From contig DAIDKF010000012.1 of NCBI GenBank assembly GCA_027450185.1, positions 1 through 64,000 on the forward strand: 64,000 bases of DNA, given 5' to 3'. A program made the position numbers and the translations under genes. Below the pieces are notes generated by a model. That model saw only the letters and a list, made by a program, of their open reading frames with translations, made no database searches and was not told where the DNA came from. This stretch comes from Granulicella sp. (GTDB lineage Bacteria; Acidobacteriota; Terriglobia; Terriglobales; Acidobacteriaceae). Shown here piece by piece: positions 35,449 through 56,980 of the stretch. Numbering within the stretch: position 1 is the first letter of the stretch; the number at the start of each line of letters is the position of its first letter.

Positions 35449-35870
35449 TCATTGGACGAGATTGCAGTCCGAATCCTCGGCGTGAGTGAACCGGCCGCAG
35501 TTGGTCATGAACTCGTGGATGCAGAAGCGATGCCGCTCGGCGCCCACCTTGTTCAAGTTCCACGCCGGGTGATTGAAGACCATCAGGACGTTCGTCAGAT
35601 CATTCAACTCGGAGAGAATTTGCTCTAGCCGCTTCATCGACGGAGATGCCGTGAAGGCGGCGAAGGTTTTAATCCAAGACGTCGCGGTGGCGCTGGGCAG
35701 ATTGGGGATGCCGAGATGAATGACCGAGTCGCGGTAAGGCACAGTCCTCTCGACCGAAACGCGAACCTAGCGTGCACAGATGCTCGAGCGCAGCAGCATC
35801 GGCGTCCGGATGTCGTCGTGGGCAGTGATGGAGACCAGAACGGGAAGCTGCAGATGACCTTCGATCAGGC
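35449..35870 (-). pseudogene. Truncated, frameshifted PHP-domain hydrolase remnant
   Basis: Read leftward from about 35860, one frame gives PVLVSITAHDDIRTPMLL, like the metal-binding T-D-H-D region of PHP hydrolases; then, in another frame, VERTVPYRDSVIHLGIPNLP continues into FNHPAWNLNKVGAERHR and ends at a stop at 35449. The N-terminal His motif of an intact PHP domain and the C-terminal third are missing, and at least one frameshift separates the two pieces. The family call is from memory of PHP sequences. Its 5' end meets the glycosyltransferase fragment on the other strand at about 35865, indicating a rearrangement breakpoint. Confidence 0.5.
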
Positions 35871-36119
35871 GGCGTTCCGAATGCGGTGCAGGATGGCTCA
35901 ACCGGCTTCCTGTTTGAGCCCACTCATCCGGATGGACTCGTATGCATGGTGCAGATGGCGTTGAGCAGCACGACGGATCTCGACGCCATCCGCAGACAGA
36001 TGCGGCAGGATGTCGAGCAGCATAGCTGGGAGGGTGCAACGGCCTACCGCGACGGCTATACGCAGAGACCATCCAGAGTTGGTCGCCGCGAGCTTCCAGC
36101 GAACCGGACAGTGCAGTGA
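35865..36119 (+). pseudogene. C-terminal glycosyltransferase (GT4-like) fragment
   Basis: From about 35865 the plus strand reads S-G-G-V-P-N-A-V-Q-D-G-S-T-G-F-L-F-E-P followed by a helical tail with HSWEGATAYRDGY and a stop at 36119. This is the donor-binding end of family 1/4 glycosyltransferases (G-G-x-P-x-A-V-x-D-G-x-T-G). Nothing upstream continues the frame beyond a few codons before a TGA, so the first two thirds are gone. It abuts the PHP remnant at its 5' end. Confidence 0.5.
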
Positions 36120-36188
36120 AGCGACTCGCCATGCGCGCAACGCTCGCCATGCTGTGTACACTGCGGTTCCCAACGCCGCGGGTTCGCC

Positions 36189-37445
36189 TCAGCGCATGAA
36201 CAGGCCCAGCGGGACAGCATCTCCCATCGCGCGATAGCCCGCGGGCGATGGATGAAGATGGTCACCAGAATCGTAGGCAGGCAGAAGGCGATCGGGATGC
36301 AGAGGGTCGCGCACGACCTGATCAAAATCGATGACCGCATCATAGTGCCCGGGCGTGCGAATCCAGGTGTTCACTGCTGTGCGGTCTGCCTCGCTCAGGG
36401 GGCCAGGATGGTAGTAGTTTGAGCCGGCATCTGGCGTAATTGTGGCTCCGAATACGCGCAGTCCGTGCGCGTGTACTCGCTCAATGATCTGCTGATAGGC
36501 TGCAAGGATTTGCCGCACCAGCGCTGCATGTCGTTCGGGCGAGACCTCTCCGTCGCGCGTCAATCCGCCAAGATCGTTCACGCCCTCGAGCACGATGACC
36601 CATCGCACACCAGCCGGCGCAAGCACATCGCTATCGAAACGCGCCAGTGCGTTTGGCCCCAGACCATCGGTCAGCAGATGGTTGCCGCCAATTCCCTGGT
36701 TTGAAACGCCAACGTCCTTCGTGCCCGACGCATGCTGTAGCCGCACCGCGAGCACATCCGTCCAGCGATCGTTGCCATTGGTCGTGGCAGCGTGTCCATC
36801 GGTAATCGAGTCGCCCAGCGCAACCACGGATGCAGCGCCAGGATCCGAAGCAACATCGACCTCGGAGAGCTGAAACCAGTGGTCCGCCTTGCCGGGATTG
36901 GAAAAATTCTGCGCGGCCACCGCATCGCCATGCACGTACCACGACGTGGCGCGAGAGCCCGGATGGCTCGTCTCGCGCGCAGGAGGCGCATCGAGATGGA
37001 ATGAGACTGCGAGGTTTGAGAGTGCACTCACGGGATAAGGGATCGGATCCGACACAAACTCTGCACCCGCCGGAATCATGACATCGCCGGCTCCGGCGAA
37101 GCTCAGCGCTCGATCGCTCGCCGGATCAATCGCCGCCGCATCAGCAGTGAGCGGCCGCGCAATATGCGCCGACGTGATGTGCAGCGGCTCGGTTCCGAAC
37201 GCGTTGGACAGATGCACTCGCAACGCCGTACCGCCGGCGGAGACGTGAACGATCTGGCGCACGGTGACATCGGTTAGATCTGCGGCAGGCAGCGCGTTCT
37301 GCGCTTCGGGAATCTGTTGCGACGCTCCCCACGTAGCAATCCACACTGCCGGCTTGGTGATGGTCTGAGCATTCAGCCCATGTCCCACCGAACATGCAGC
37401 GAGTACGACCCATGCAAACGTGCTGTGAGCAGATGTGATCTTCAT
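36189..37445 (-). CDS. Secreted SGNH/GDSL esterase
   Basis: 418 residues from MKITSAHSTF; the ATG at 37445 has AAGGA at normal distance, while the ATG 18 bases upstream has its GGAG touching the codon. Signal peptide to about LNAQT. The N-terminal 190 residues form a beta-rich accessory domain (VRQIVHVSAGGTALRVHLSN), followed by the SGNH core: block I ALGDSITDG, block II Gly in GIGGNHLL, block III VLEGVNDLG, block V DHLHPSPAGY. This architecture is known in secreted carbohydrate or lipid esterases. No operon partners; it lies inside the remnant-rich zone but is intact. Confidence 0.9.
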   Translation of the reverse strand: MKITSAHSTFAWVVLAACSVGHGLNAQTITKPAVWIATWGASQQIPEAQNALPAADLTDVTVRQIVHVSAGGTALRVHLSNAFGTEPLHITSAHIARPLTADAAAIDPASDRALSFAGAGDVMIPAGAEFVSDPIPYPVSALSNLAVSFHLDAPPARETSHPGSRATSWYVHGDAVAAQNFSNPGKADHWFQLSEVDVASDPGAASVVALGDSITDGHAATTNGNDRWTDVLAVRLQHASGTKDVGVSNQGIGGNHLLTDGLGPNALARFDSDVLAPAGVRWVIVLEGVNDLGGLTRDGEVSPERHAALVRQILAAYQQIIERVHAHGLRVFGATITPDAGSNYYHPGPLSEADRTAVNTWIRTPGHYDAVIDFDQVVRDPLHPDRLLPAYDSGDHLHPSPAGYRAMGDAVPLGLFMR

Positions 37446-37610
37446 CGTCGCGTCCTTGTGCATCTCCGGAAATCAATTGAGTTTCACTGCTGGTGGATCG
37501 TTCGGTGGCACTTCGACAAAGAGGCAGCCCTACGGAGATCCGTGGCAACTGGCTAACAGAATGAATGGGAGGTAATATACTTTGCGCACAATTCACCATG
37601 CGAGTCCAGC

Positions 37611-37638: not shown

Positions 37639-37659
37639 CAAGGGAACACTACTTCGAAC

Positions 37660-38590
37660 CTACAAAAACTCTTTTTGGGCTTGGCCAAATGTTCCGTCTG
37701 CTGTATAAGCTCCAAGCTGTTTGGAAGCATCACCAAGTTCTCCGATGACATGATTGCCAATCCCAGAATTATATAAAGAGCGCTTATCAGCGGAAATGCC
37801 GCCTTTTTGGCTGGGCCGCCATCAGGGTCGTATTCAATAATTACCCCAGACCGACTGCCTCCCCATTGGAGATGGTATAGCCGAAGCCCCAGTGAGCCTG
37901 ATCAAACGCATATGCAATCAAACGCATCAAGTGATCCGCCTCAGCGTTCCTCGAATAAATAACAAAATCTATTTTGTCGGTTGGGATTTTTGCAATTGTC
38001 CTATTAGAGCTTGCCGCAATCCTTGGCCAAGGCCACACGGAGCAAGAGATCGCTCAAGTTGAAGACGTTCAAGTCTCTCTTGCTCGACCTGATGCTGAAG
38101 AATCAAGTTATCGGCCAGTATTTTCTGCTTGTCTATGGCCGCTTCATTTGCCTGTTTTTCAGCCTCCGACGAGTTTTTCCGCGCCTCTTCAGCTTTCGCA
38201 TGGATGGCTTCTGCCTTCTGCCTAGCCATTTCGGCCTTCTCCTTAGCGGCTGCCGAACCCGCTATCGTAATGTTTGCATCAGTTCTGGCCTGAGCAATTT
38301 GAACATCAGCCTGTTTTTTTTGTACGTCTCAAGGTCATCATCCTTCAAGCGGCTAACCGTGTTGCCGAAACCTATAGCCCCAAACGTTCCAGCCAAGCTT
38401 ATGAATGCGGTTATAACTACCACGATTTCAGTTGTGAGTTCCCACCGTAACTCAATTCCCCTATTTTTCGCGTGTTTTCGTATAGAACCATCGCTGCACT
38501 GGCGAGTGTCAGAACTACTCCTACAACATAGATTACGTTTGACTCTGTCAATAGGTGAGAAGCAGAATCGAGACGAAGACTATGAGTCAT
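37660..38590 (-). pseudogene. Two-helix coiled-coil protein gene with five frameshifts
   Basis: Starting at ATG 38590 (MTHSLRLDSASHLLTES) a single coherent protein of about 311 residues can be read to a stop at 37660 only if one base is restored at each of five places: near 38464-38468 (A5 run), 38314-38321 (A8), 37987-37991 (A5), 37844-37847 (G4) and about 37769 (AA). All five are losses in mononucleotide runs or a short repeat; no in-frame stop arises from substitution. The protein has two membrane helices near the N-terminus (VIYVVGVVLTLASAAMVLY and IVVVITAFISLAGTFGAIGF), a coiled coil rich in Ala/Glu/Lys, and a C-terminal domain with IDFVIYSRNAEADHLMRLI. Family not recognised. Confidence 0.75.
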
Positions 38591-38867: not shown

Positions 38868-39053
38868 CTAGACAGGGCACCGTTCGCTCATCCACTCCGC
38901 AAACTGCCAGGTGTTCTTTCGCTCACAGCGGCTCAGCAAACCTTGAAGGTAGGCCAGACTGCGCTCCCTTGGCTCCGAACATGCAATCAACCCCGCTATT
39001 CGGTCATGGCACCACAACAACTCACGCTTCCAACCATACATTCGATTCTCCAT
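38868..39053 (-). pseudogene. N-terminal fragment of an IS701-like transposase
   Basis: 61 codons. The segment SEPRERSLAYLQGLLSRCER followed by KNTWQFAEWMSE closely resembles the N-terminal region of IS701-type (DDE) transposases, which carry R-x-x-A-x-x-Y-L-x-G-L-L-S-x-x-E-R-K-N-x-W-Q-L-A-E. The catalytic core is absent and the frame stops immediately afterwards. No inverted repeats could be paired around it. It is a dead fragment marking past insertion-sequence activity. Confidence 0.6.
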
Positions 39054-39352: not shown

Positions 39353-40639
39353 TCAAAAGAGTGTTTCGACGATATCGACGACAACATGGTGAGCGTTGAT
39401 GATGAGGAGATGGCGCCATCTATCGAACGTAAGGCAAGGGTGTGAGATATCAAAGGCGATTTTGTCCCCCACCTGAATAGAATCTGCTGAAGTAATCTCC
39501 AAGTAGGCATGCTGGTCCATGATGCGTGTAAGTCGCCAGTGCCCCGGCGTTGCTTGCGGCGTATTGCCCCCCCGCGATACATGAAGAGCTGGCGTTGGCA
39601 AACCACAGTCGAATGCGGCATCACGTTTCCCCATCCCTACAATCGCTTTCGTCGGCTCTGGAACGGAGTGCACGTATGCCCAGACTTGCATCGCCGGCAG
39701 AAGGGTTGATTCCATTTCACGCGCCACCGGGTTGATTCTGGTCGCTCTCTCGAGAGCCATTTTGTAGTCGCCCACATCGTGAGTCAGGTAGCAACCGGGA
39801 CGCAGGACCACCTCAGTAGGGTATTTGATCTCGGAACGGGAAAAAGCCTCTGCTACCAGATCGAACCAGGCAGTCCCGCCGCCGGAGAGGATCATGGAGT
39901 GGCGGCCAAGCGCTCCCTGCGCCACAACGGTCTTCGCGAACTCCACCGCGCGCTGGAGAAGGCCTCGGACCTCTGTCTCATCCTTGCTGATACCCTCGTA
40001 CACCTCTACACCGCAGAGCACGATCGTATCGTGCCAGTGCGCCAGCGCCGTCAGCAGAGCCTCGAGTTGCTCCATATTGCGAACCCCAGTGCGCCCTCCC
40101 TGAAGTCCCACTTCCAGTAAAACCTGCAGACGCTGGCCCTTGGACTGAAAGAAATGTCCCAACTCCGCCAGGTTTTCCACCGAGTCGACCAGGCAGAAGT
40201 AGTCGAACGAAGGATCGCACAGCAACGAAGCAATGATCTCCATATTCTGGCGGCCCACCAGTTGATTTGCCATGAGTACTCGTCGTACGCCGTATGCGTA
40301 GGCCACGCGAGCCTGATGAGCAGTGGCCATGGTGATTCCCCAGGCGCCGGCGTGCAACTGCATGGAGAAGAGTTTTGGCGCCATTGTCGTCTTGCCGTGG
40401 GGTGCCAGCCGCGCTCCATAGGCATCAACAAAGCGTTGCATCCATTGCAAATTGTGGTCGAGCTTTTCTTTGTAGATCACCGCAGCCGGAAGGCTCACGT
40501 CATCTTCCAGCAAATTCCATCCCTGCGCGGCAATCCACTCTGCACTAGCGGGGAGATCCATGGGACCGAGTCCCTTATTCAGTTCGCTGATGGTCTGCGT
40601 CGAGCGTCGAGTCTCACCCCATCTTTTCTCTGCATCCAT
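39353..40639 (-). CDS. D-serine dehydratase / D-threonine aldolase-like PLP enzyme (fold III)
   Basis: 428 residues; ATG 40639 has GGAG six bases upstream. The PLP-binding lysine lies in APHGKTTMAPKLF, the N-terminal barrel signature of fold III enzymes such as D-threonine aldolase, eukaryotic-type D-serine dehydratase and bacterial amino-acid deaminases. The C-terminal DISHPCLTFDRWRHLLIIN carries the His/Cys metal-site pattern (H-P-C) typical of the zinc-dependent DSD1/D-TA branch, and VVDIVETLF is the usual ending. It would cleave or deaminate a D-beta-hydroxy amino acid. Last gene of the leftward catabolic run. Confidence 0.9.
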   Translation of the reverse strand: MDAEKRWGETRRSTQTISELNKGLGPMDLPASAEWIAAQGWNLLEDDVSLPAAVIYKEKLDHNLQWMQRFVDAYGARLAPHGKTTMAPKLFSMQLHAGAWGITMATAHQARVAYAYGVRRVLMANQLVGRQNMEIIASLLCDPSFDYFCLVDSVENLAELGHFFQSKGQRLQVLLEVGLQGGRTGVRNMEQLEALLTALAHWHDTIVLCGVEVYEGISKDETEVRGLLQRAVEFAKTVVAQGALGRHSMILSGGGTAWFDLVAEAFSRSEIKYPTEVVLRPGCYLTHDVGDYKMALERATRINPVAREMESTLLPAMQVWAYVHSVPEPTKAIVGMGKRDAAFDCGLPTPALHVSRGGNTPQATPGHWRLTRIMDQHAYLEITSADSIQVGDKIAFDISHPCLTFDRWRHLLIINAHHVVVDIVETLF

Positions 40640-40819
40640 TTGTCACTCCAGTAAGGTTCCAACTGAACGATTGCATAACGGAGCCGGCGACGGCATAAGA
40701 AGCATTGCACCCATTCGTATCTTCAGCTTGAGTATCATATAGACGCTGATGGAAGCTGGCGATCTGTCTCGAGCCGTCTCCATGACTCAACTCCATCAAA
40801 TCAGATACTGTTCTGCAGT

Positions 40820-42319
40820 TCACTCCGTAATTTCGAAGGTCTGTTGCGCGGTCTCAACTGAGAGACCGTTCCGCCCCGGTTTCGGCGAACTCGGAAACAG
40901 GCTGACGCAATACCCCAAAACGAAAGTCACCAATGTTCCGATGGCGCCGTAGTAAAAGAAACTCCAATCCGAAGCAACCATCATGATCACGACGGAGATA
41001 CAGCCAGCAATCGCTCCGAGGAACACACCGCTTGACCTGGCACGCCGCGTTCCCACAGCGAGGAGAAAGATGCCAAGCATGGGCCCGACGATGGCGCTGC
41101 TCACGCGGAGGTAGGCAACGGCCAGATCCCCGGCACTCCCTGCAAACAAGGCCATCAGTGTCACCACGCATCCCCATACCGCAGTTCCAATTCGCCCGAC
41201 CTTTGCGTAGTGGACCGAAGAGGCGTCAGGCCGGAGAGACCGTGCATAAAAATCCACCGTGAACGCAGTGGTGAGCGCGTTGACTCCGGCCGACATGACA
41301 GACATCGATGCGGCGATGATCGCGGCCACTACCAGACCAGCAATGGTCCCCGGCAGCTCCGTCAGCACGAAATACGGGACGATCGTATCCATGTTATGCA
41401 GACCTGCGAGCCTGCCCGGGTGAGCGTGATAAAACGCAAACAGCACAAGGCCAACCATATTAAGCACTGCAATTACCGGGACGATGAGCATAGCCTGCAG
41501 CACCACGGATTGGCGAAAATCCCGCGTTGATCGTGAAGAAAACAGGCGCTGCAACACCACCTGATCCGTAGTGAGCGGCCCTAAAGCCAGAAATACGCCG
41601 CCCAGCAGACAAGCCCAGAATGTTGTCTCCTTGGCTGGATTGACTGAGAAATCGAAGAGATGCATTCGGCCCGCAGCAAGGTTCACCTCGTACATCGCGT
41701 GCAGTCTGCCAGGGATTCCGTGAAGGGCCACAGAGAAGATGACGAGAATTCCAACCATCACGGTGATGAACTGCAGAACCGCCATCCAAATGACCGCCTT
41801 CATTCCTCCCAGTGTGGTATAGATGGTAGCAAGCATTCCCATGATCAATACGCTTTCCGTGACGGACATTCTGCTCATCAGATGGATGACAAGCGCGGGC
41901 CCGTAAATTGCCACCGCCACATGCCAGGAGCGCAAGAGTTGAAACAGGCCGCTGGTCACCCTGCGCACATTCAGACTGAACCGCTGTTCCAGATATTCGT
42001 AGGCTGTATACAGATGCAGACGCGCATAGATGGGCACAAAGACGAAGAGCACCACCGGCGCTACCAGCGGATACCCAATCGTGACCCAGATGAGTGTCAG
42101 ATTGTGCTTGAATACCCACGCGGGTGATCCCATGATGGAGATCGCGCTCAGGTCGACTGCAACGATAGAGATGCCGACCGGGAGCCAGCCCATTGCCCGC
42201 CCGCCGAGAAAGAACTCGCTGGCGCTGGTGTGCTTCCGGTAGAACGAACTACCCAGCGCTGCGACCACCAACAGATACAGCATCATCGCAACAGAGCCCG
42301 ACATGGATAGATGGATCAT
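40820..42319 (-). CDS. Sodium:solute symporter (SSS family)
   Basis: 499 residues with about thirteen helices. Family signature region ASEFFLGGRAMGWLPVGISI and the Na-site helix APVVLFVFVPIYARLHLYTAYEYLEQRF, plus GPLTTDQVVLQRLFSSRS, are diagnostic of the SSS (SLC5) family, which includes sialic acid, sugar and amino-acid carriers. Its start overlaps the M81 peptidase stop (ATGA). It would bring the island's substrate or a breakdown product across the inner membrane with sodium; which one cannot be read from sequence. Confidence 0.93.
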   Translation of the reverse strand: MIHLSMSGSVAMMLYLLVVAALGSSFYRKHTSASEFFLGGRAMGWLPVGISIVAVDLSAISIMGSPAWVFKHNLTLIWVTIGYPLVAPVVLFVFVPIYARLHLYTAYEYLEQRFSLNVRRVTSGLFQLLRSWHVAVAIYGPALVIHLMSRMSVTESVLIMGMLATIYTTLGGMKAVIWMAVLQFITVMVGILVIFSVALHGIPGRLHAMYEVNLAAGRMHLFDFSVNPAKETTFWACLLGGVFLALGPLTTDQVVLQRLFSSRSTRDFRQSVVLQAMLIVPVIAVLNMVGLVLFAFYHAHPGRLAGLHNMDTIVPYFVLTELPGTIAGLVVAAIIAASMSVMSAGVNALTTAFTVDFYARSLRPDASSVHYAKVGRIGTAVWGCVVTLMALFAGSAGDLAVAYLRVSSAIVGPMLGIFLLAVGTRRARSSGVFLGAIAGCISVVIMMVASDWSFFYYGAIGTLVTFVLGYCVSLFPSSPKPGRNGLSVETAQQTFEITE

Positions 42320-43806
42320 GAAGATAGGGGAAACGCTGCATCGATCTCGAGTGGGAAGATCGGGCAGCGCCTATGGTGATAGGTGAAGTTCGCCGGGTTA
42401 TTGGACGTCACGCCAGGGGTATCGACCAAAATCATCTCACCTGCAATTGGTTCATAGGCAGCGCGTGGAGCAACCACTCCTTTAACGATGAGCACGTCTT
42501 TCTGCTCGGGATGAATCCCGAGGCTGAGCACCTGCTCCAGGCTCATAGGGGCCATGCGCAAGCTGGTGAGCACGACGCTGTGCTGTTCGTCGGTTTCCAC
42601 CACAGCCGTGAGCCCCTGATTTCCGCCGCCCCAACCGCCGTGTCGAACTTGCTTCTCCGTAAAGACTCCATCCGACAGGCTGCGGACTCGGCCCTTGATC
42701 CATATCGGGGTCCCATGACGGTCGTCGCTCTTGGCTCCCACCTCTAGCGCTACCCGGCTCCCCACACCCGACGCGGAGCAGACGGACACAGCCTCAGGGT
42801 CGTACAGAATAACCAAAGCATTCCGCCCCCTCTGGAGCATGATCTCGCGGAAGAGGATGGTGGAATCCGCGGGACTTCCGCCGCCGATGTTATCCCCAAC
42901 GTCCAAAAGCACGGCGGGCTTCTTCTGCGCCAGCAACGCCATGCTCACCCCCGTGGCAGGGTCTGGCAAGTGTTGCAGGAAGCTCTGCCGTCGTTCCCAG
43001 GCCCGTGTGGCCAGCCATAACGCCGCGCGTCTTGCCAGGGCAGCGTCGCCGTCGGCAACCGCTACAAACGATGCACCCATCTCCTCGACATCAGCGTAAT
43101 AGAATCCCATGGCGACACTGGCGGTCAGGATGCCCGGCCACATGCACACGTCCTCAAGGTCTGTATAAAGCAGGCGTGCCGGATCCTGGCGGGTGTATTG
43201 ACAAGCGATCGGCAGCAGCAGCGGCGGCATTTCAAGCGCCTGCACTGGCTTCACTTCACCCCGGAGGATCCTTCCCAGGAGGAGGGCGGCCTCATATCCG
43301 CGCTCATACTGATCGATATGCGGATTTGTACGATACGCGATCAGTGCCGCACTATGGGCCGCCATCGCCGCTGAGATGTTTGCATGAAGATCAAGCGTGA
43401 CGACAATCGGCAATTCCGTACCTACCAGATGTCGCACGCGCCGGAGAAACTCTCCATCGGCGTCAGGATATTGCTCACTCACGGTGGCGCCATGCAGAGC
43501 CATCAGTAGACCATCAATCGGGAGAGCCTTTTGCAACTCCACCAGATATTCGGAGAGCAGCCTCTCATAGCTCTCGGCCGTAATCGTGCCACTGGGTACC
43601 GCCAGGCACGCCATGCCTCCGGCGATACTGAGGTCGGCTTCTGAACAACCGGCAATCATCCCTCCAAGTTCGTGGCGGGCGTCTCGCCACCGCTCCAGCA
43701 TCGCATCGCCACGGGTAAGCGAGACGCGCAGGAAGTCTTCATACTCGGTCTTTGCCGCCAGAAAGGTGTTGGACTCGTGTAGAAATCCCAACATCGCCAC
43801 CTTCAT
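42316..43806 (-). CDS. M81-family (MlrC-like) metallopeptidase
   Basis: 496 residues from MKVAMLGFLHESNTF (ATG 43806, AAGGAGG seven bases upstream). The N-terminal HESNTF, TLDLHANIS and YRTNPHIDQYERGYEA and the later LDVGDNIGGGSPAD are the conserved blocks of the M81/DUF1485 family. MlrC, its characterised member, cleaves linearised microcystin and tetrapeptides, but most members have unknown substrates and occur with amino-acid catabolic genes. Overlaps the SSS gene by ATGA. In this context it may hydrolyse an unusual amide or peptide derived from the island's substrate. Confidence 0.9.
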   Translation of the reverse strand: MKVAMLGFLHESNTFLAAKTEYEDFLRVSLTRGDAMLERWRDARHELGGMIAGCSEADLSIAGGMACLAVPSGTITAESYERLLSEYLVELQKALPIDGLLMALHGATVSEQYPDADGEFLRRVRHLVGTELPIVVTLDLHANISAAMAAHSAALIAYRTNPHIDQYERGYEAALLLGRILRGEVKPVQALEMPPLLLPIACQYTRQDPARLLYTDLEDVCMWPGILTASVAMGFYYADVEEMGASFVAVADGDAALARRAALWLATRAWERRQSFLQHLPDPATGVSMALLAQKKPAVLLDVGDNIGGGSPADSTILFREIMLQRGRNALVILYDPEAVSVCSASGVGSRVALEVGAKSDDRHGTPIWIKGRVRSLSDGVFTEKQVRHGGWGGGNQGLTAVVETDEQHSVVLTSLRMAPMSLEQVLSLGIHPEQKDVLIVKGVVAPRAAYEPIAGEMILVDTPGVTSNNPANFTYHHRRCPIFPLEIDAAFPLSS

Positions 43807-43918
43807 CACCAGCCTCCTTGCGTGATCTTCGCCAGGTTGTCGCGAGCAGATTTGCCGCACGGAGAGTCGGCCCGGAGCAACCTCCGCTGATTTGGCTCGT
43901 GCAGACAACCGCGCAGCC

Positions 43919-44680
43919 TCACCATGCCAGAAGTCCTCCATCCACGGTCAGTGTCGTTCCAGTGATAAAGGTTGCCCGCGAACCCATCAGGAAAGCCACC
44001 GCATCTCCTACTTCAGTAGCTGTTCCACGTCGTCCAAGCGGTGTGGTGCGTAGATACTTTCCCTCGGCTCCACGGCTCAGCACATGACCGGCAATCTCGG
44101 AACTCGTCTCCGTATCAATGTCTCCCGGCGCAACCGCATTCACGCGAATCCGGTACGGCGCGAGTTCAAGCGCCATCGATTGGGCCAATGATACTTGTGC
44201 TGCCTTGGTGGAGCAGTACACGGACGCCAGTTCCTGTGCTGCGAAAGCGCCCACGCTTGAAACATGAACGATAGTGCCTGAAGATGATCGATCGATCAGA
44301 TGACGAGCCACTGCCTGGGAACACCAGATAGTTCCTTTCAGATTCGTGTCTACGATCTTGTGCACAATTTCGGTTGACATTGAGGGGAATGGCGTCAGTG
44401 CGGCCGGCCCCGTCACGGAGGCATTGTTTACTAGACCGTCGATTCTGCCGAAAGATCGGGCAACTGCATTGACTGCTTTATGGACCTGCTCGGCGTCACT
44501 GATATCTGCAGCAAAGCCACGCGCGCCACGATGCAGCAATGCAGCGCGTTCCGCTGCATCCGCGGTCCGCTGCACAATTGCAACCAGCGCTCCGTTCGCC
44601 GTAAGCGCCTCGCAGATACCACGTCCAATACCAGCCGCACCACCGGATACGATAATGACCTTCCCTTCCAGTCCATTCAT
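43919..44680 (-). CDS. Short-chain dehydrogenase/reductase
   Basis: 253 residues from MNGLEGKVIIVSGGAAGIGRG; the ATG at 44680 overlaps the previous stop (ATGA). Classical SDR features: TGxxxGxG variant SGGAAGIGRG, NNAS, catalytic Ser in VSSVGA, Y-C-S-T-K, and APGDIDTE. Acidic cofactor residues typical of NAD preference are not obvious (VQRTAD follows the second strand, an Arg suggesting NADPH). It oxidises or reduces an alcohol/ketone, probably an intermediate handled by the adjacent PLP and aminotransferase enzymes. Confidence 0.93.
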   Translation of the reverse strand: MNGLEGKVIIVSGGAAGIGRGICEALTANGALVAIVQRTADAAERAALLHRGARGFAADISDAEQVHKAVNAVARSFGRIDGLVNNASVTGPAALTPFPSMSTEIVHKIVDTNLKGTIWCSQAVARHLIDRSSSGTIVHVSSVGAFAAQELASVYCSTKAAQVSLAQSMALELAPYRIRVNAVAPGDIDTETSSEIAGHVLSRGAEGKYLRTTPLGRRGTATEVGDAVAFLMGSRATFITGTTLTVDGGLLAW

Positions 44681-45756
44681 CCCTGTGCAGTCTCCTCTGC
44701 CTGTTCGCACAACAGATTCACAAGCGCCCCCTCCAGATCAGCGGCTTCAACACAGACAGCCTCATGTTCTTGCGCGATGCGCATGACCGAAATCGGGTCC
44801 TTGAAGCCATGTCCGGTGACAAGACAAACGCTGGTTTCGCCTCTGGTGACAACACCGGCCTCCAATGCACGTCTCCACCCGGCAAAGGCGGTGGCACCCG
44901 CCGGTTCAGCGTAGATCCCCTCGCGTTCCATCAGAAGTTTCTGCGCACTGAACACTTCTTCATCGCTGACCGCAATGCCCGTCCCCCCACACTTCTGCGC
45001 CAGGCGCAGTGCCCGGCTTGCATCGATATCCATCGGAACGGACAGGCCACTGATCTGCGTGGTACTCCGCGGTGGAACAAACTGATCCGAGCCACTACGG
45101 TAACCTGCCACCATGGTGAGACAACCCTCAGGCTGAACACCGTGAATCCGTGGCGGCTTTCCTCCGCTCGATAAAAAGCCCTGTGCAATTGCCGAGTAGA
45201 GACCCCCTCCTCCTACCGGCACAAATACGTGATCCGGACGAACTGCTTCCAATTCCCCAGAGATGGATTCAACTCCCTGCATGCCTTCTGGACAGAAGCG
45301 AAACGCCGAAATGACCAGGGGAACGTTCCATCGCTGGGATACATCCTGCAGCAAGTTGAATACCGCTGACGTCACGGCCGGGTCCGATACGAATGCAGGG
45401 ACTCGCAACACGTGGGCTCCATACGCCTGCATTTGCATGAGCTTTCCCGATGGAGCGTCCTGGTTTACCAGAATCAGGCAGCGCAGGCCGTAGCGCGCAC
45501 AGTAGGCAGCCAGCGCGGAGCCCGTGTTACCCGAGGAAGTAGCCAGGCATGCCGTAACCCCTGTACGCATCATCCGCGTCACCTCAGCGGCAACAAAGCG
45601 GTCTTTGTACGACCCCGTGGGATTCGAGCTTTCCAGCTTGAAATACAACCGGCCGGCTTGCGGCACTGGTTGCGCCACCGCAGCAACCAGCGGCGTATTC
45701 CCTTCGCCCATTGTGGCGGATGCTGTTGCGAAAGCCTTCCTCTGTGTGGCTGACAT
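44677..45756 (-). CDS. Threonine synthase/dehydratase-like PLP enzyme (fold II)
   Basis: 359 residues with PLP lysine in NPTGSYKDR, phosphate loop region SSGNTGSALAAY and GGGGLYSAIAQGF, the hallmarks of the threonine synthase/serine-threonine dehydratase fold II group. SYKDR (rather than SFKxR) and SSGNTG favour a threonine-synthase-like subgroup, but such enzymes also act on diaminopropionate or hydroxy-amino acids. Overlaps: one base with the MBL gene (TAATG) and ATGA with the SDR gene. Likely does a beta- or gamma-elimination in the amino-acid branch of the pathway. Confidence 0.88.
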   Translation of the reverse strand: MSATQRKAFATASATMGEGNTPLVAAVAQPVPQAGRLYFKLESSNPTGSYKDRFVAAEVTRMMRTGVTACLATSSGNTGSALAAYCARYGLRCLILVNQDAPSGKLMQMQAYGAHVLRVPAFVSDPAVTSAVFNLLQDVSQRWNVPLVISAFRFCPEGMQGVESISGELEAVRPDHVFVPVGGGGLYSAIAQGFLSSGGKPPRIHGVQPEGCLTMVAGYRSGSDQFVPPRSTTQISGLSVPMDIDASRALRLAQKCGGTGIAVSDEEVFSAQKLLMEREGIYAEPAGATAFAGWRRALEAGVVTRGETSVCLVTGHGFKDPISVMRIAQEHEAVCVEAADLEGALVNLLCEQAEETAQG

Positions 45757-46505
45757 TAAAAAATCACCACCCCCTGACCGATCTGCGCTGGAAGAAATCC
45801 GCTCTGTAACGACTGGAGTGCAGCGTCGATGTGCCTTTGCCCAGCCTTCAAAGTGAACATTCCATGTCCCGGAAGCAACATCTCGACGCCGCTGTTACGC
45901 AACATGGGCAGGTCTTCCACATATCCCTGCAAGCTCGAATCCCACGCATTGATCACGCCCAACACACCACCATAGAACACTACATCTCCGCTGAAGCACG
46001 CAACGTGGCCGTCGATCAACGTCAACAGGCAGTAGCTGTCATTTGAATGTCCGCGCACACGCATGGGATTCCATACCCTTCCGCCAACTTCAAACTGCTC
46101 ACCAGAGCGAAAGGTTTGGTCGACAGGGCAATTCCTCAGTCGCAACTCCTTCGGGTAGGCCCCCATCTCCCGCGCTCGACGCAGACCGCTGCGCTCTTCA
46201 TCCCCGGCCTCCAGAATCGATCCGGTCTCTTCGGAGGTGACAAGCGTACAACCGAATCTCTTCCTCAATGCGCCCGCTCCGCCGGAGTGATCCGCATGCG
46301 AGTGCGTCAGGATGATACCCGCAACAGATACCCCTGGGAAATCCGCCGCCAGTTCCGCTGCGAGATCTGCTTCTCCGAGTCCTGAGCCCGCGTCGATCAT
46401 CACCACACCCTGAGGCGAGTCAACCGCGTACACATGACAATCCCACTGGTCGCTCAAGCCGAACTGAGCGCTGCCGACCATTGCGAGTTGAGGGAGAATT
46501 CGCAT
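45756..46505 (-). CDS. Metallo-beta-lactamase-fold hydrolase
   Basis: 249 residues. Zinc motif THSHADHSGG, then His in RGHSNDSY, Asp in FSGDVVFYGG and His in LPGHG complete the two-metal site. The length and ALRKRF...VTSEETG layout fit glyoxalase II-like or lactonase-like members. Its stop overlaps the next ATG by one base (TAATG), and it begins 86 bases after the aminotransferase stop. It may open a lactone or hydrolyse a thioester or amide in the pathway. Confidence 0.9.
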   Translation of the reverse strand: MRILPQLAMVGSAQFGLSDQWDCHVYAVDSPQGVVMIDAGSGLGEADLAAELAADFPGVSVAGIILTHSHADHSGGAGALRKRFGCTLVTSEETGSILEAGDEERSGLRRAREMGAYPKELRLRNCPVDQTFRSGEQFEVGGRVWNPMRVRGHSNDSYCLLTLIDGHVACFSGDVVFYGGVLGVINAWDSSLQGYVEDLPMLRNSGVEMLLPGHGMFTLKAGQRHIDAALQSLQSGFLPAQIGQGVVIF

Positions 46506-46591
46506 CCTATCTTCTTGTCAACGCGTTCGAATCAGTTTTACGCTCATACGCCCGAAGGAGTCTCGGACAACGGACAGCTCTTCAACGGACG

Positions 46592-47935
46592 CTAGCACAA
46601 CACTCTGTCTACAGCGCGAAGGGTATCTTGCAATGCCTGCTCGTCGTGCGCCGTTGAGAGATACCATCTTCCATCCTGTAGCAGCGTAACCCCCTCATCC
46701 AACATGCTGACCGCAAAATCCACATAGAGCGCCTTGTCTGCGAGGAGGATGTCCCGATAGGTATGTGGCATCTCTGTCTGCAATAGAACCTGAAAGACAG
46801 GGCCGCCGCCGGTGGCGATGACTGGAATCTGCGATTCCCTCAACCGACTCACAACGCCGTCACGCAGACGATTCCCTAGCTCCCACATTCTCGAATAGAC
46901 CGCACCGTTATCGGCCGCAAGCGTCTCCAAAGCTGCCTTGGCAGCTGCGAGCGCCAGAGGATTTCCGTTCAGCGTGCCCGCATGAACCACTTTTCCGGAT
47001 GCAATCATCTCCATATATTCCGCTCTGCCGGCAAGCACGCTTAGTGGCAAGCCTGCCCCCACGGCTTTCGCATAGGTTGCGAGGTCCGGAGTCACGCCGT
47101 AGTACTGTTGTGCGCCTCCAGGTGCCAGCCGGAATCCTGTAATCACTTCATCGAAGATCAGCAGAGTGCCATAACGGCGTGTGATATCACGCAGGAACTC
47201 GAGAAAACCAGGCTCCGGAGCGATACATCCGCTATTGCACAAAAGTGGCTCGCAGATTACAGCAGCAATCTCTTCTCCGTGTTGCGCAAACATTTGTTCT
47301 ACGCCCTTGCGGTCATTCCACTGTGCCACCAACGGTGCAACGCCTGAACGCTGGCCCGCTCCAGCCGACACAGGATTGTCGCCGAACTGCCGAAGTTCCT
47401 CCTCGGTCGGATGGTAGCTGATCAGAACACTGTCGTCCCATCCGTGATAATGCCCTTCAAACTTCAGATACCGCTCCCGGGAGGTGAAGGCGCGTGCCAG
47501 CCGCAATGCCACCTGCACAATCTCTGTACCACTATTGGCATAGGCCACACTGTCCGCGCACGGAATCATCTGCGTCAAGAGCTCAGAGACCTCGAACTCC
47601 AGGTCGTGCTGCGCTCCGAAGGTATGCCCCAGCAGAAGATGCTCGTTAAGGGCACGATTCACTTGCTGTGGAGCATGTCCCAGAATTAGAGGGCCCCATC
47701 CCAGCATGTAATCCACGTATTCGTTATCGTCCACGTCCCACAAGCGCGCTCCCCTACCCTTCTTGAAGTACAGCGGAAACGGTTGTGCCGAACGACGCAG
47801 ACCACTGGAAACTCCTCCTGCCAAAGTGCGCTGCGCACGCACTCCGCGTAGCCATGACCCCTGCGCTTTACTGGAAAGCCGGACTCTACGCTCCGAGACG
47901 TGAAACCTCGATGAAATCGCGCTGGAATTGCTCAT
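46592..47935 (-). CDS. Class III aminotransferase (glutamate-1-semialdehyde aminomutase-like)
   Basis: 447 residues from MSNSSAISSRF (ATG 47935, ATGA overlap with the kelch gene). Motifs: ARLWDVDDNEYVDYMLGWGP, NSGTEIVQVALRLARAFT, H-Y-H-G-W-D for PLP stacking, IFDEVITGFR with the Asp contacting the pyridine nitrogen, and the PLP lysine in ATYAKAVGAGLP. GGVSSGLR near the start is the GSA-aminomutase-like signature, but heme biosynthesis genes are absent nearby, so it more likely transaminates an amino sugar- or amino-acid-derived aldehyde or ketone in the island. Confidence 0.92.
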   Translation of the reverse strand: MSNSSAISSRFHVSERRVRLSSKAQGSWLRGVRAQRTLAGGVSSGLRRSAQPFPLYFKKGRGARLWDVDDNEYVDYMLGWGPLILGHAPQQVNRALNEHLLLGHTFGAQHDLEFEVSELLTQMIPCADSVAYANSGTEIVQVALRLARAFTSRERYLKFEGHYHGWDDSVLISYHPTEEELRQFGDNPVSAGAGQRSGVAPLVAQWNDRKGVEQMFAQHGEEIAAVICEPLLCNSGCIAPEPGFLEFLRDITRRYGTLLIFDEVITGFRLAPGGAQQYYGVTPDLATYAKAVGAGLPLSVLAGRAEYMEMIASGKVVHAGTLNGNPLALAAAKAALETLAADNGAVYSRMWELGNRLRDGVVSRLRESQIPVIATGGGPVFQVLLQTEMPHTYRDILLADKALYVDFAVSMLDEGVTLLQDGRWYLSTAHDEQALQDTLRAVDRVLC

Positions 47936-48894
47936 AAGCTGTTCTCCGCTGCTGGCCAGGATAGTGTTGCCGACCATGTTTGAGACCCGCGGACATGTGC
48001 TTTAATCTCTCCGCCTGTCGTATACCATCGCGGTCCAATTTCAAAAAAACCAGCATCGGCCACTGGATGGGGCAGAGTTCCAACGCGCGCGGCACCGCTC
48101 CCCTTCAAGACCAAAACATCCGCGCGAAACTCCGAAGTGAATCCTCCCAGTAACCACACCCGCCCACAGGCCGCGACGGCGGCCATTGCTCGCCGTCCTT
48201 CGGGTAGGCTTCCTTCTCGCGTCCATTGCCGCGATGTCGTATCGAATGCCCATATATCCGATAGATTGCCACGCAAGGCTTTATCCGCCTCGTATCCTCC
48301 GATCACCAGAATCCTGTCTTCGCGGAAGACAGCTCCAAAGGAAGCTCGTGCAGCCGCTGGGCACGCTGGCAGCGGGCTCCAACCTGCCTTGATGTTCTTC
48401 AGATCTATACTCCAGAATGTCTCTAGTCCTGTGGTGTAGTCACCCGGCTTCGAGATCCCGCCTAGAAGGAAGATTCTTTGGCCATCGGTAACGGCAGCCC
48501 CTAACAACCGGGGCTCCGGTAATTCCATCTGCGCCTGCAAGGTCCACTGCGTGCCGTCGAAGGAGTACACCTGACGCAAACCTCGCGCTCCACTCGCTCC
48601 ACCCAGCACATAAAGCGTACCGCCTACCGTCACAGACTCCGCATCACTCAGAGCCTCCGGAAGGGATGCCATTTTGCTCCAACAGTTGCACTCCTGATCA
48701 TAGGCGTCGGTCGCCGCAGTTTGTATCTTCTTGTCGCCCATCCACTCGCTGCCCCCGGCGATGATCAGACGACCATGCACAACCCCAGCAGCATACCCGG
48801 CGCGGGGCTCGGGTAAAGGTGCTCGCGAGATCCAGTTGAAGGGCATTGGCATGAGAATCAAGACGGCTCCAATCCATTGCGGCAGGAAGTTCAT
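47932..48894 (-). CDS. Six-bladed kelch protein, NanM-like
   Basis: 320 residues from MNFLPQWIGAV (ATG 48894, ATGA overlap with the upstream stop). An N-terminal hydrophobic segment looks like a signal peptide or anchor. Six kelch repeats carry the diglycine turn: LIIAGG, LYVLGG, IFLLGG, ILVIGG, VWLLGG and WYTTGG, each with the downstream Trp/Tyr. Bacterial secreted kelch propellers of this size include NanM, the N-acetylneuraminate mutarotase; the match is at architecture level. In this setting a mutarotase or sugar-acid-binding role is reasonable. Confidence 0.85.
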   Translation of the reverse strand: MNFLPQWIGAVLILMPMPFNWISRAPLPEPRAGYAAGVVHGRLIIAGGSEWMGDKKIQTAATDAYDQECNCWSKMASLPEALSDAESVTVGGTLYVLGGASGARGLRQVYSFDGTQWTLQAQMELPEPRLLGAAVTDGQRIFLLGGISKPGDYTTGLETFWSIDLKNIKAGWSPLPACPAAARASFGAVFREDRILVIGGYEADKALRGNLSDIWAFDTTSRQWTREGSLPEGRRAMAAVAACGRVWLLGGFTSEFRADVLVLKGSGAARVGTLPHPVADAGFFEIGPRWYTTGGEIKAHVRGSQTWSATLSWPAAENSL

Positions 48895-49877
48895 CGCACG
48901 CAATCCGCAATAAGGTACAGTGAATCTCCCGGCTTCACGACGGGATGTTCATGAATTAACGCCACCGTTCCCGAGCGCGGCGCACGGTATTCCTCCAGCA
49001 GTTCACCGAGACTATTCACCAAAACCCCCAACATCTGGTTCTCCCGGATCTCTTCCAACAGCTGGGCGTGATTCAACAGAAATCCTTCCCGTCCAGCGCA
49101 GATACCACAATCAGTATCGCCATCACCATACAACTGAAGCCGAATGGGTCTCAGCGTCGGCCTGCCCATCAGAATGCCCAGGTGCCGCATCAGATTCAGA
49201 ACTCCCTGCTTCATCGTTTTCAGATCTCCCGAATCAATCCGGCAAGCACCGCGCGCTTCGGTGTAGATCCACGGAATATCTCGCGACTTTGCAAAGGAAA
49301 TCGTCCGTCCTGGCGGTATGCTTCCATGTCCCCAGATCGTTTCAGCACCAAAGATACGGGCAGCAGCCGAGCTGCGCGGATCGCTTGCATCATAGCCAGC
49401 CATCATTGGCATCGCATAGGCGGTCCCTCCGCTATGAAGATCAAGATAGAAATCTGCGCGAGCAATTACCCGCTCTGCAAGCACCGCCGCGACCTTCTCG
49501 GTGGGTTCTCCCGTGCAATTGCCGGGAAAAACACGAGCCAGATTCAACCCGTCCAATGGGCTGGTTCTTTCGGCAGACCAAAACGCAGCAGGGTGTGCCA
49601 CGGGAATAGCTAACAGGTCGCCATGCATCTGCGAAGGATCGAGAACGTCGGCCACCTCCAGGATGGCGCGCACCCCTTCGAATTCGTCCCCATGGACTCC
49701 GGCGGTCACGACAAGCGTCTTGCCCGACGCTGCTCCGCGTACAAGCAGTACCGGAATCTGCTGCGTGCCTGCCGCAAGCATGAGACGATGGGCCATATTA
49801 CGATCGAACGCCCCGGGATCAAACTGTTCCGGATCCATGGTTCGACGGTATGGGGCTTCGGAGTTCACACCACTCAT
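48891..49877 (-). CDS. Succinylglutamate desuccinylase/aspartoacylase-family amidohydrolase
   Basis: 328 residues; the ATG at 49877 is preferred over an in-frame GTG one codon earlier. Zinc ligands are in VTAGVHGDEFEG (H-x-x-E) and a second His in LDLHSGG; NLARVFPGN and TEARGA fit the M14-like AspA/AstE family. These enzymes remove N-acyl groups from amino acids. First gene of the leftward run, with the CTGTCGACAG operator 17 bases before its ATG, so its transcription should respond to the island's regulator. It fits removal of an N-acyl substituent early in the pathway. Confidence 0.9.
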   Translation of the reverse strand: MSGVNSEAPYRRTMDPEQFDPGAFDRNMAHRLMLAAGTQQIPVLLVRGAASGKTLVVTAGVHGDEFEGVRAILEVADVLDPSQMHGDLLAIPVAHPAAFWSAERTSPLDGLNLARVFPGNCTGEPTEKVAAVLAERVIARADFYLDLHSGGTAYAMPMMAGYDASDPRSSAAARIFGAETIWGHGSIPPGRTISFAKSRDIPWIYTEARGACRIDSGDLKTMKQGVLNLMRHLGILMGRPTLRPIRLQLYGDGDTDCGICAGREGFLLNHAQLLEEIRENQMLGVLVNSLGELLEEYRAPRSGTVALIHEHPVVKPGDSLYLIADCVR

Positions 49878-49893
49878 CACAAGCCAATGTATT

Positions 49894-49903
49894 CTGTCGA
49901 CAG
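49894..49903. promoter_or_regulatory. Operator palindrome, copy 1
   Basis: CTGTCGACAG, a perfect 10-bp palindrome, 17 bases upstream of the aspartoacylase-like ATG. The same ten bases occur at 50065 and 56911, all in promoter regions of the catabolic island. Likely bound by the GntR/FCD regulator encoded at 53213-53878. Confidence 0.7.
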
Positions 49904-50036
49904 TTTTAAATCAAGCCCAACACATCTTCATGGATCGAACGTGAGCCTGCATCGCCATATTCGTTGTCTACCAAAGGCGCTCATTAGAGCTTTCCCGAGA
50001 CGAACCGCAGGCGGAAGGGGGGATCGCGTATTCTGC

Positions 50037-50064
50037 TTGACTCTCCTCAAATCGAAGATATAAT
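50037..50064 (+). promoter_or_regulatory. Sigma-70-type promoter of the aldolase gene
   Basis: TTGACT (50037-50042), 16-base spacer, TATAAT (50059-50064). The transcription start should fall inside the operator at 50065-50074, only about 5-8 bases before the ATG at 50079, so the messenger would be leaderless or nearly so; no ribosome site is present. Confidence 0.7.
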
Positions 50065-50074
50065 CTGTCGACAG
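50065..50074. promoter_or_regulatory. Operator palindrome, copy 2
   Basis: CTGTCGACAG immediately follows the -10 box and covers the expected transcription start of the aldolase gene, the classic position for a repressor. Identical to the copies at 49894 and 56911. Confidence 0.75.
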
Positions 50075-50078
50075 TTAT

Positions 50079-50987
50079 ATGAAAGCTTCCACTCTATTCG
50101 GCGTCATCCCACCCATCGGCACCCCTCTGAACCCAGAGGGTGGCGTAGATGTTCTGGGTCTCCAGAGACTCACCCATCATCTTCTCAATGGCCATGTCCA
50201 CGGCGTCTTCGTGAATGGTTCGATGGGGGGCTTCGCTTTCCTGACCGACACCGAGCAACTCCGCTCCATTGCAACGGTGGTGGACACGGTTGCGGGTAGT
50301 GTACCGGTCATGGCAGGGCTAGGTGAGTCCAGTACCACTCGCGCCGTTCTGAGAGCCCGCGAGATGGCGAAGCTCGGAATCACCCATCTTTCGGTTCTCG
50401 CACCTCTCTTCTACCTGGCGGAACAGGATCATCTCGTCCGTTACTTTTCGGAGATTGCCGCCGCCGTCGACCTACCCATCGTTCTGTACGACAATCCAGT
50501 CCTCACCAAGAATCCAATTCATCCTGAGACGGTGATACGGCTACGGGCGAGGATTCCCCATCTTGTTGGGATGAAGGAGAGTAACCAGGATTGCGTGAAT
50601 CTGCAACTGCTTCTGGAGTTGACTCGCAATGAGGAGAACTTTTCCGTGCTCACTGGCAGCGAGTTTCTCATCGTCGTAGGCTTGCAGATGGGAGTCAAGG
50701 GTTGTGTAGGCGGCATTCATAACATTTGCCCCAGCATTGCGGTCGAACTCTATGAGGCTTTCCTGAAGGGCGATATTGAAACTGCACGGAAGCGCCAGGA
50801 GGTCCTGACACAACTCTGGCAGATCTTCCGACAGGGCAGTGTATGGAATGCTTTCGAAGAAGCCCTGCGATTCCTCGGCATCTGCGAGAGAACTGCCGGC
50901 GAACCATACGTGACCCCACTCTCTCAAGCCGAGCGCGATAATATCCGCAACATTCTCGCCCGGTATCTGGTTCCGGTAACCTCGTAA
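50079..50987 (+). CDS. DapA/NanA-family aldolase with altered substrate loop
   Basis: 302 residues, the normal length for dihydrodipicolinate synthase/N-acetylneuraminate lyase family barrels. Schiff-base lysine in LVGMKESNQD and catalytic Tyr in IVLYDNPVLT are present. The loop that is G-T/S-T-G-E in DapA and NanA reads NGSMGGFAF, so the Thr binding the substrate carboxylate and the following Glu are replaced; the substrate probably differs from both. A start at the first ATG is forced by the promoter, which leaves almost no leader. Overlaps the GH20-like gene by one base (TAATG). Probably cleaves a 2-keto-3-deoxy sugar acid to pyruvate and an aldehyde. Confidence 0.88.
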   Translation: MKASTLFGVIPPIGTPLNPEGGVDVLGLQRLTHHLLNGHVHGVFVNGSMGGFAFLTDTEQLRSIATVVDTVAGSVPVMAGLGESSTTRAVLRAREMAKLGITHLSVLAPLFYLAEQDHLVRYFSEIAAAVDLPIVLYDNPVLTKNPIHPETVIRLRARIPHLVGMKESNQDCVNLQLLLELTRNEENFSVLTGSEFLIVVGLQMGVKGCVGGIHNICPSIAVELYEAFLKGDIETARKRQEVLTQLWQIFRQGSVWNAFEEALRFLGICERTAGEPYVTPLSQAERDNIRNILARYLVPVTS

Positions 50988-53179
50988 TGCGGCCTCCGGT
51001 CTTCACGAATGAACTGTCCTGCCGGGCGCAGCACTCGACAGTACTCGCACGACAAGCTTTAGCTCCGAGTCATCGAGTTCACTTGACAGCCATCGCTGCG
51101 GCTTCGCTCATCTGCACGGCTAGCCTGCTGGCTGCCCCCCTCAATCCCACACTGTCGCTGATTCCTTATCCTCGCTCAGTAGTGCTCGAGCACGGCTCTC
51201 TTCGAATTCCGTCTCGATCGCTGATCTCCTGTGAAAGCCCGGAAGATGACTTCGCAGCCGGACTATTGGCCGCCGAGATTGGTCGGACAAATGGTTACTC
51301 GGCTCGGGTCACCGGTAAGATTCCTGACGGCAGCGCAGCGCCCTCATTTATTCTGGCTCGAGTGGGCACGCCTCAAGCGAATCAGATTCTCGCGCAAGAT
51401 AAGCTGACATTCCCCCGCGACGCACAGCTCGAAGGATACATCCTGGAGGTGAATTCTCATCAGGCGGTGGTCATCGCCGCTTCCAGCGCAGGCGTCTTGT
51501 ATGGCGTTCAGACGTTACGCCAGCTTCTCCAACCCACTGAAGGCGCGACCTCTGTGCCCGCAGTCAACATAACGGATTGGCCGGCCATGAGATGGCGCGG
51601 CTCCCAGGTGAGCCTCAGCCAGGGGGCTGTTCCAACTCTGCACGATCTTGAACGCACCGTCACGCTGCTTTCCGAATACAAGGAGAACGTGATGCTGCTT
51701 TACTTCGAAAGCAGCTTCGATTACCCCAATCTGCCGCTGGTGGCAACGCCGGGGGGCGCCATGACACCGAGCGAAGCTGGCGAACTCGTTGCCTTTGCCA
51801 AGCCTTACCATATTAGAGTCATTCCTCAGCAGGAATCACTCGGGCATATGCACTGGATCCTCCGCAAGCAGATCTATCAGAATCTGGTAGAGATGCCTTA
51901 CGGAAACGTGCTGGCGCCAGACGCTGACGGAGGCCTGAATCTCGTAACAGACATGTTCGACGAGTTAGCGCAGTGCTTTCCAGGACCTTTTCTCCATATA
52001 GGAGCTGACGAACCGTTCGAGCTGGGCCAGGGAAGATCACATGACCTCGTAAGACAATGGGGCGCGGGACAGGTGTATATTGACGCGCTGAAGCGTCGCG
52101 AAGCTGTTCTTCGCCCTCTCGGGCGAAGCCTTCTGTTCTGGGGTGACATCGCGCAACATTACCCCGGCCTGCTAAACCAACTGCCCCATGATTTGATTGC
52201 AATGCCGTGGAACTACAAAGAGTCCGACCCTCTACAGTTGAGCCGCATGATCGAACCTTTCCGAGATGTAGGGATCGAAACATGGGTCGCGCCGGGCGTT
52301 GATAATTGGAACCAGGTCTTCCCAAACTTTTCCGTCGCATTACCGAATATCCGAGGCTTTGCTGAAGCTGGCCAGCAAATGGGGTCTGCGGGCATGGTAA
52401 CCACCACGTGGACGGACGACGGCGAAAGCCTCTTTGACTTCTCGTGGTACGGGCTGCTCTACGGCGCTGAAGCTGCCTGGCAATCCACAGTCGACGATAC
52501 GCAGTTTTCCGATGCCTACGACTGGGCTTTCTATCGCGCGCCCGGTCATCACTTCGCCCATGAAATCTCGCTCCTGTCAGATATCCATCACACGTTGCGA
52601 CCGGTCGTACCCTATGACGCAACGGACCGTCTGATGTGGGTCGATCCCTTTACCCCGGAGGGGCAGCAGCTCTACCTTTCGCTCTCGCCAGTATCCGAGC
52701 GGATTCGACTGCTTGCCGAGCAGGTAATCGCAGACCTTCGCACCTCCCGCTCGCAGGCTGGCCGCAACCAGGACTTTCTGGCTTTCGTTGAATTCGGTGC
52801 ACGACGCTTTGACTATCTTGGAGAAAAGGCGGCATACACGAGCTATATCGATAACCTGTACAGTGAGGCGCGCGAGGAGGCATCGACCAGGCCCGCCGAA
52901 GCTTCCGACAAGCTCGAACGCATCTACTCAAGCGATGGGCTCCTGCTCGATCTGCGCGACGACAATATTTACCTGCGCGAGCGCTATCGCAGTCTCTGGC
53001 TGGCGGGAAACCGTCCCTACTTTATGGACGTAATGCTGCAGCACTACCAGCGGGAGAACGACGAAATCGCTGCGGAGATCGATCGTCTTCGCTGGCTCGA
53101 CGCTGACCTGAATGCAGCACACAGCCTGCCCCCTCTTGTCTCGGACACTGCCACACCTGGACCGATATCGAAACGCTAG
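50987..53179 (+). CDS. GH20-like secreted glycoside hydrolase
   Basis: 730 residues from the TAATG overlap at 50987. A hydrophobic segment near residues 33-50 (HLTAIAAASLICTASLLAA) is a late signal peptide, so an internal start is conceivable. The N-terminal alpha/beta domain (LNPTLSLIPYPRSVVLEHG, GVLYGVQTLRQLL) matches GH20 hexosaminidases, and the barrel carries FLHIGADEPFELGQG with the Asp-Glu catalytic pair (GADE instead of the usual GGDE). The substrate-pocket aromatics cannot be judged safely. The last 180 residues are helical. It probably releases an N-acetylhexosamine-like unit outside the cytoplasm. Confidence 0.82.
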   Translation: MRPPVFTNELSCRAQHSTVLARQALAPSHRVHLTAIAAASLICTASLLAAPLNPTLSLIPYPRSVVLEHGSLRIPSRSLISCESPEDDFAAGLLAAEIGRTNGYSARVTGKIPDGSAAPSFILARVGTPQANQILAQDKLTFPRDAQLEGYILEVNSHQAVVIAASSAGVLYGVQTLRQLLQPTEGATSVPAVNITDWPAMRWRGSQVSLSQGAVPTLHDLERTVTLLSEYKENVMLLYFESSFDYPNLPLVATPGGAMTPSEAGELVAFAKPYHIRVIPQQESLGHMHWILRKQIYQNLVEMPYGNVLAPDADGGLNLVTDMFDELAQCFPGPFLHIGADEPFELGQGRSHDLVRQWGAGQVYIDALKRREAVLRPLGRSLLFWGDIAQHYPGLLNQLPHDLIAMPWNYKESDPLQLSRMIEPFRDVGIETWVAPGVDNWNQVFPNFSVALPNIRGFAEAGQQMGSAGMVTTTWTDDGESLFDFSWYGLLYGAEAAWQSTVDDTQFSDAYDWAFYRAPGHHFAHEISLLSDIHHTLRPVVPYDATDRLMWVDPFTPEGQQLYLSLSPVSERIRLLAEQVIADLRTSRSQAGRNQDFLAFVEFGARRFDYLGEKAAYTSYIDNLYSEAREEASTRPAEASDKLERIYSSDGLLLDLRDDNIYLRERYRSLWLAGNRPYFMDVMLQHYQRENDEIAAEIDRLRWLDADLNAAHSLPPLVSDTATPGPISKR

Positions 53180-53212
53180 TTGTTTAGTCGGGATGTAGAG
53201 AGACTGGCCGAC

Positions 53213-53878: not shown

Positions 53879-53888
53879 TGAATTTAAA

Positions 53889-55412: not shown

Positions 55413-55542
55413 TTGGCCTCCTTGCGAACATGCAATCTTGCCTCGTCTGACCACAAATCAATTCGCTGATACATTTGCCCATGACATCCTCCCTTCGCGC
55501 ATCGCCCAGAGCCTTGCGTCATGCAATCGCCGCAGATGCAGG

Positions 55543-56928: not shown

Positions 56929-56980
56929 AACCAGGAAGCTGGCTGTTAGAATGAACTATGCCAGACTCGTGGTCTAACTG

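Follow-up and report, generated by a model that had tools for sequence, protein, structure and literature searches.

We found a broken gene for a putative membrane-anchored coiled-coil protein on the minus strand of the window, the 64,000-nucleotide stretch analysed here (bases 1-64000 of contig C12, 72,383 bp; the draft genome comprises 145 contigs, totals 2.17 Mb and is 54% complete). The gene runs from 38590 to about 37652, reads as one protein over three frames and carries six counted -1 breaks. We think it likely that the locus reflects real decay, that is, that it is a pseudogene of an accessory gene, and the accessory gene was probably acquired horizontally. The first-pass annotation had offered recent decay as one of three readings, and it is the best supported of them because other gene remnants lie around it, along the border of foreign-looking DNA, and because the rest of the assembly, where sampled, has clean frames. 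A decayed accessory gene is ordinary in kind. As decay, the locus would be the scar left where conserved chromosome meets a foreign-looking block in this Terriglobia draft genome, and a seemingly isolated broken gene becomes part of a wider decayed strip.

A frame map of the minus strand gave open pieces from 38590 in frames 1, 0, 2, 1, 0 and 2, with no stop codon inside the pieces of the path. Each step between pieces is -1 modulo 3, the size of each loss being known modulo 3 only. Piece 1 (38468..38590, frame 1) contains the start codon and the first predicted hydrophobic helix, and the first break, in a run of five, was placed by hydrophobic-helix continuity and a weak profile match (E 4.6). 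Piece 2 (38319..38465, frame 0) carries the second hydrophobic helix and was aligned at the most lenient shift penalty. After a break in a run of eight, piece 3 (37991..38313, frame 2; profile match E 5e-6) covers the coiled coil as far as ERLERLQLERSLAP. Piece 4 (37851..37984, frame 1; E 0.0097) follows a break near a run of five and gives the first half of the C-terminal alpha/beta region, and piece 5 (37776..37847, frame 0; GVIIEYDP...KKAAFPLISAL) follows a break near a run of four and was assigned by a profile match (E 0.49) and its colinear position; for both pieces the -1 step was placed by alignment. Piece 6 (37677..37773, frame 2; NSGIGNHV...) was assigned from the L-x3-G-[IVL] spacing after SAL, and the fifth break, in a short TA-rich stretch, from the SAL-x-x-S-G-I-G spacing, both read by eye in the homolog alignment. 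Piece 7 (37652..37672, frame 1), which follows a break in a run of five, supplies the C-terminal RVFVGSK and the stop codon. By our assignment five of the six breaks are in or beside runs of four to eight, the longest run (8) occurring at one break only, and the GC content of the gene is 47.4% as against 59.5% for the window.

To place the pieces independently of the joined sequence, we left the window protein out and built a profile from the ORFs of homologs alone (16, of which one is short and one contains masked residues). It was compared with every stop-to-stop segment of the window that reaches 15 residues, 1,823 in total. At the top of the ranking stood 37972-38328 (E 5e-6), 37844-38053 (E 0.0097) and 37614-37901 (E 0.49), which lie in three frames and match the consecutive profile positions 52-145, 146-183 and 187-228. 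A frameshift-tolerant alignment scored 75.7 bits, compared with 54.9 bits when shifts were disallowed; 13 control stretches gave 14.5-19.0 bits. Under the most lenient penalty the steps chosen at the second, third and fourth breaks were all -1 and none was +1; under the two stricter penalties only the -1 steps at the third and fourth were retained. The alignment does not extend to the first, fifth and sixth breaks. A chance chain of open pieces with no gene behind it is refuted for pieces 3-5 by the independent profile and the alignment controls. For the locus as a whole we give this reading almost no credence: the path had been picked by eye and the independent profile does little or nothing for pieces 1, 2, 6 and 7, but piece 7 carries the end motif of the homologs.

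Used as a query in a first search, the joined protein recovered its own pieces and open frames in 2 of 100 other genomes. A three-row profile that includes the joined protein matched 26 of the 398 other genomes in a sample of the class, and the 29 homolog rows listed from these 26 genomes have no stop in the matched stretch, though the weakest rows may be unrelated coiled coils. The search for an intact protein in relatives that the first-pass annotation had proposed thus returned open homologs. The window copy is about 24-30% identical to its homologs and colinear with them over the coiled coil and the C-terminal region. These comparisons demonstrate a single protein family behind the pieces, with open members in other genomes of the class. 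Both open homologs elsewhere and several disabling lesions in one frame, as expected of a pseudogene, are therefore present.

The last of the six breaks was found at the gene end. The first-pass path ended in KEFL*, which is out of frame relative to the homolog ends, whereas frame 1 of the window, one -1 step further on, ends in KRVFVGSK* with its stop at 37652. We call this step a sixth break because the C-termini of the closest two homologs (IRLFIGSK and IRMFIGSKQ) match the frame 1 end and because the motif is rare in the window, where its strict form closes 2 of the 1,823 segments. The strict motif was found in 6 of 27 homologs (L002, L043, L044, L047, L063 and L067), and a FIGSK-type end is no family-wide rule.

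Several features that had been read from the sequence at first pass therefore needed adjustment. A single protein across the frames is upheld for pieces 3-5 by profile and alignment, with no internal stop, and the frames number three rather than five. Every step is indeed -1 modulo 3, the count rising from five to six with the missed gene end, and the placing of the events in runs or a short repeat agrees with our own (five of six in or beside runs of at least four, the fifth break in the TA-rich stretch). The description as a two-helix coiled-coil protein needs widening: as predicted from the sequence, the gene encodes N-terminal hydrophobic helices, a coiled coil and a C-terminal alpha/beta region, not a coiled coil alone.

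The same order of parts is seen in the class homologs L043 (= L079), L002, L042, L044 and L045, which are open frames of 276-299 aa, whereas the window copy is broken. By eye, the homologs and the window copy share ERLARLQLE, APR/ADR and L-x3-G, and the closest two homologs also share the FIGSK end. The window protein has a cysteine where 14 of 16 homologs have arginine (also read by eye) and retains most other conserved positions. The intact protein fits no curated family in Pfam, NCBIfam, PADLOC or PHROGs. Against Pfam the joined protein gave only PA26 at E 0.088, under the cut-off, and three homologs gave no match; in NCBIfam two of four homologs had weak matches far under the cut-offs; and weak matches, mostly over the coiled coil, were obtained for one of four homologs in PADLOC and two of five in PHROGs, neither of which gives a cut-off. 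A profile search of the PDB returned two weak matches only (E 0.036 and 0.08). In an AlphaFold model of one homolog (mean pLDDT 68, pTM 0.40), built with moderate to low confidence, residues 3-144 form a single long helix and the C-terminal part an alpha/beta region; a fold search with this model found no match at E 0.001. Our analysis thus outlines an uncharacterised membrane/coiled-coil family, and we can only guess that its intact members might be membrane-tethered scaffolds or sensors. No relatives were found in a plasmid search with the joined protein or in a comparison of homolog L002 with plasmids and phages, and a scan of genome contigs with the joined protein gave no match. One family homolog (L083 3989-4678) sits on a viral-filed contig, where an ORF that by eye resembles a serine recombinase precedes it by about 1.4 kb.

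The surroundings of the broken gene were compared with G014, the nearest relative found, which is collinear with the window over 1-37506 and loses synteny at 37506. DNA identity is 80-92% over the main blocks and 67% over the first 621 bases. Between shared genes G014 has an open 428-residue glycosyltransferase and an open 356-residue frame, of which the window retains remnants: residues 326-426 of the glycosyltransferase at 35862..36163 (plus strand), with a 1-base loss breaking the frame near 36043, and residues 57-189 only of the 356-aa protein at 35479..35877 (minus strand). The two alignments have 10 bases in common (35868..35877), and about 1.5 kb present in G014 is missing from the window at this junction. 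On the other side, upstream of the broken gene, 38868..39053 (minus strand) holds only the start, about 61 codons, of a DDE_5 transposase that is a 384-aa open frame in a relative; we take this remnant to be IS701-like. Because of the truncated neighbours at 35479-36163 and the cut-off transposase start, we place the broken gene in a strip of gene wreckage at about 35.1-39.3 kb. The first-pass statement that neighbouring genes show no such damage does not survive, since both remnants on the left are truncated, that of the glycosyltransferase with a 1-base loss, and the transposase is cut off. The nearest flanking genes, at 36189-37463 and 39353-40639, are open. The former (36189..37463, minus strand), a GDSL lipase-like gene, is the last gene in common with G014 on that side; since the G014 DNA beyond it is unrelated to the window, the junction there is variable in both genomes. 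That G014 DNA (L029 9900-16610) contains what appear by eye to be broken transposase pieces. At a second site in the window (20611-20620), G014 is about 0.85 kb longer and two matches overlap by 10 bases; of a 377-aa ORF at this site only 88 residues are matched in the window.

A local sequence or assembly error, in which the cell carries an intact gene and bases in runs were dropped from an unpolished or low-coverage patch, had also been proposed. The lesions themselves fit it well: all six losses are -1, runs of at least four hold or adjoin five of them, nonsense is absent and motifs are largely kept, a pattern that resembles the long-read error signature in the part of PMC12007338 drawn on here. 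In that part of the Kastor paper, nanopore homopolymer errors are single-base losses in runs of two to eight, more in A/T than in G/C, as in the window, and deletion errors are commonest after runs of four to five. Such errors fragment many genes per assembly, whereas the sampled rest of this assembly is clean: losses concentrated in homopolymer runs were found, but breaks across the assembly were not seen in the three stretches compared.

This contrast comes from a census of frames in three stretches that add up to about 77 kb out of 2.17 Mb, one being the leftmost 37.5 kb of the window and the others 20 kb each. In the final census, which required at least 60% identity to G014 orthologs and counted as passing those with at least 90% aligned in one frame, 56 of 65 orthologs passed (20,654 residues). 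Selection by ORF length gave 64 with a match and 49 passing, and selection by match score with no identity floor gave 75 and 60 (21,844 residues); the 60% floor removed ten rows, all cross-matches with 20-39% identity, and four of these had previously passed. The nine that did not pass are the two remnants, an upstream-extended start (L074:15910-17373), genes cut by a stretch end (L074:3-1379, L075:80-1141) or by the window start (L027:7610-8422), and genes partly divergent but in one frame (L027:8587-8922, L027:12306-12737, L028:8882-9427). Rows with more than one frame were upstream-extended starts (L028:4589-8524, L074:15910-17373, L074:3213-4595), and the only true second-frame piece was that of the glycosyltransferase remnant. 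Across the three stretches, frame breaks were thus confined to the decayed strip, and these clean single-frame orthologs exclude a uniform assembly error rate. In the 56 passing genes every A/T run with at least 5 bases (29) and every G/C run with at least 4 (358) is unbroken, whereas 4 of 8 A/T runs and 1 of 5 G/C runs of the same lengths lie at a break in the broken gene (Fisher p 0.001 and 0.014, a comparison that leans because the 56 were counted for passing).

The unbroken runs in passing genes, the open flanking genes and the truncated neighbours, which indel errors would not produce, all stand against a local error, and we regard it as improbable, though the most serious competitor to decay. 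If it were an error, the locus would be a caution for annotation only.

The spectrum of lesions speaks against decay, as six single-base losses with no nonsense are unusual. Among 346 one-lesion Salmonella pseudogenes, the portion of PMC2916853 used here gives 131 with a premature stop, 141 with short deletions of any size and 17% with insertions. If these shares are treated as independent, the probability that none of six lesions is nonsense is about 0.06, and that all six are short deletions <0.005. Local error fits the spectrum better than these decay figures do. Of random substitutions in the frame, about 3.4% would create a stop; 30 substitutions would leave the frame free of stops with a probability of 0.35 and 60 with a probability of 0.12. 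In the same portion, Kuo and Ochman (2010) describe multi-lesion pseudogenes with small frame-breaking deletions in a dispensable gene and larger deletions adjacent, as in the window. The window locus differs from the Salmonella set in having six lesions of one type and no stop, 346 of those 378 pseudogenes having one lesion (PMC2916853, same portion).

Inactivation purely by slippage losses in runs, with no nonsense decay, would point either to a contingency gene in its off state or to raised -1 slippage in the lineage or at the locus; we hold it to be very unlikely. Loss of mutS as a cause of slippage was rejected, a full mutS1 match without stops being present at G000:C4:30408-33104. Slippage switching or programmed frameshifting that gives a low-level full-length product fares still worse and is barely credible. 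The breaks do lie in runs, one of them of eight, and shorter runs may slip in some bacteria, but eight As are called non-slippery and nine slippage-prone (both from the part of PMC1088944 considered). Six separate corrections would be needed in one message for each product, only one run is as long as 8, and none of the 29 homolog rows listed has a stop where it matches; we found neither a break kept among homologs nor a long repeat. This first-pass suggestion is accordingly set aside.

We therefore return to decay as the preferred reading. Selection on the accessory gene would have been lost, after which replication slippage would have removed single bases, mainly in short runs. The protein would no longer be made, and the remnant would persist in a degenerate strip between conserved chromosome and a block of foreign composition.

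That block occupies 39353..64000. In G014, 39301-59300 is almost absent, with one 59-base match. Two stretches running from 39.3 kb to the contig end (7.3 kb overlap) have a GC content of 0.556-0.568, compared with 0.591-0.631 in eight others from this genome, and their tetranucleotide correlation with those eight is 0.40-0.64, compared with 0.61-0.87 among the eight. The right part of the contig, from window position 37500 to the contig end, may be a genomic island or, less likely, a chimeric join, and the composition break coincides with the strip that holds the broken gene. An island borne by a tRNA gene was rejected, as no tRNA was found in the window or in L029. The sign of the GC skew flips near 36 kb.
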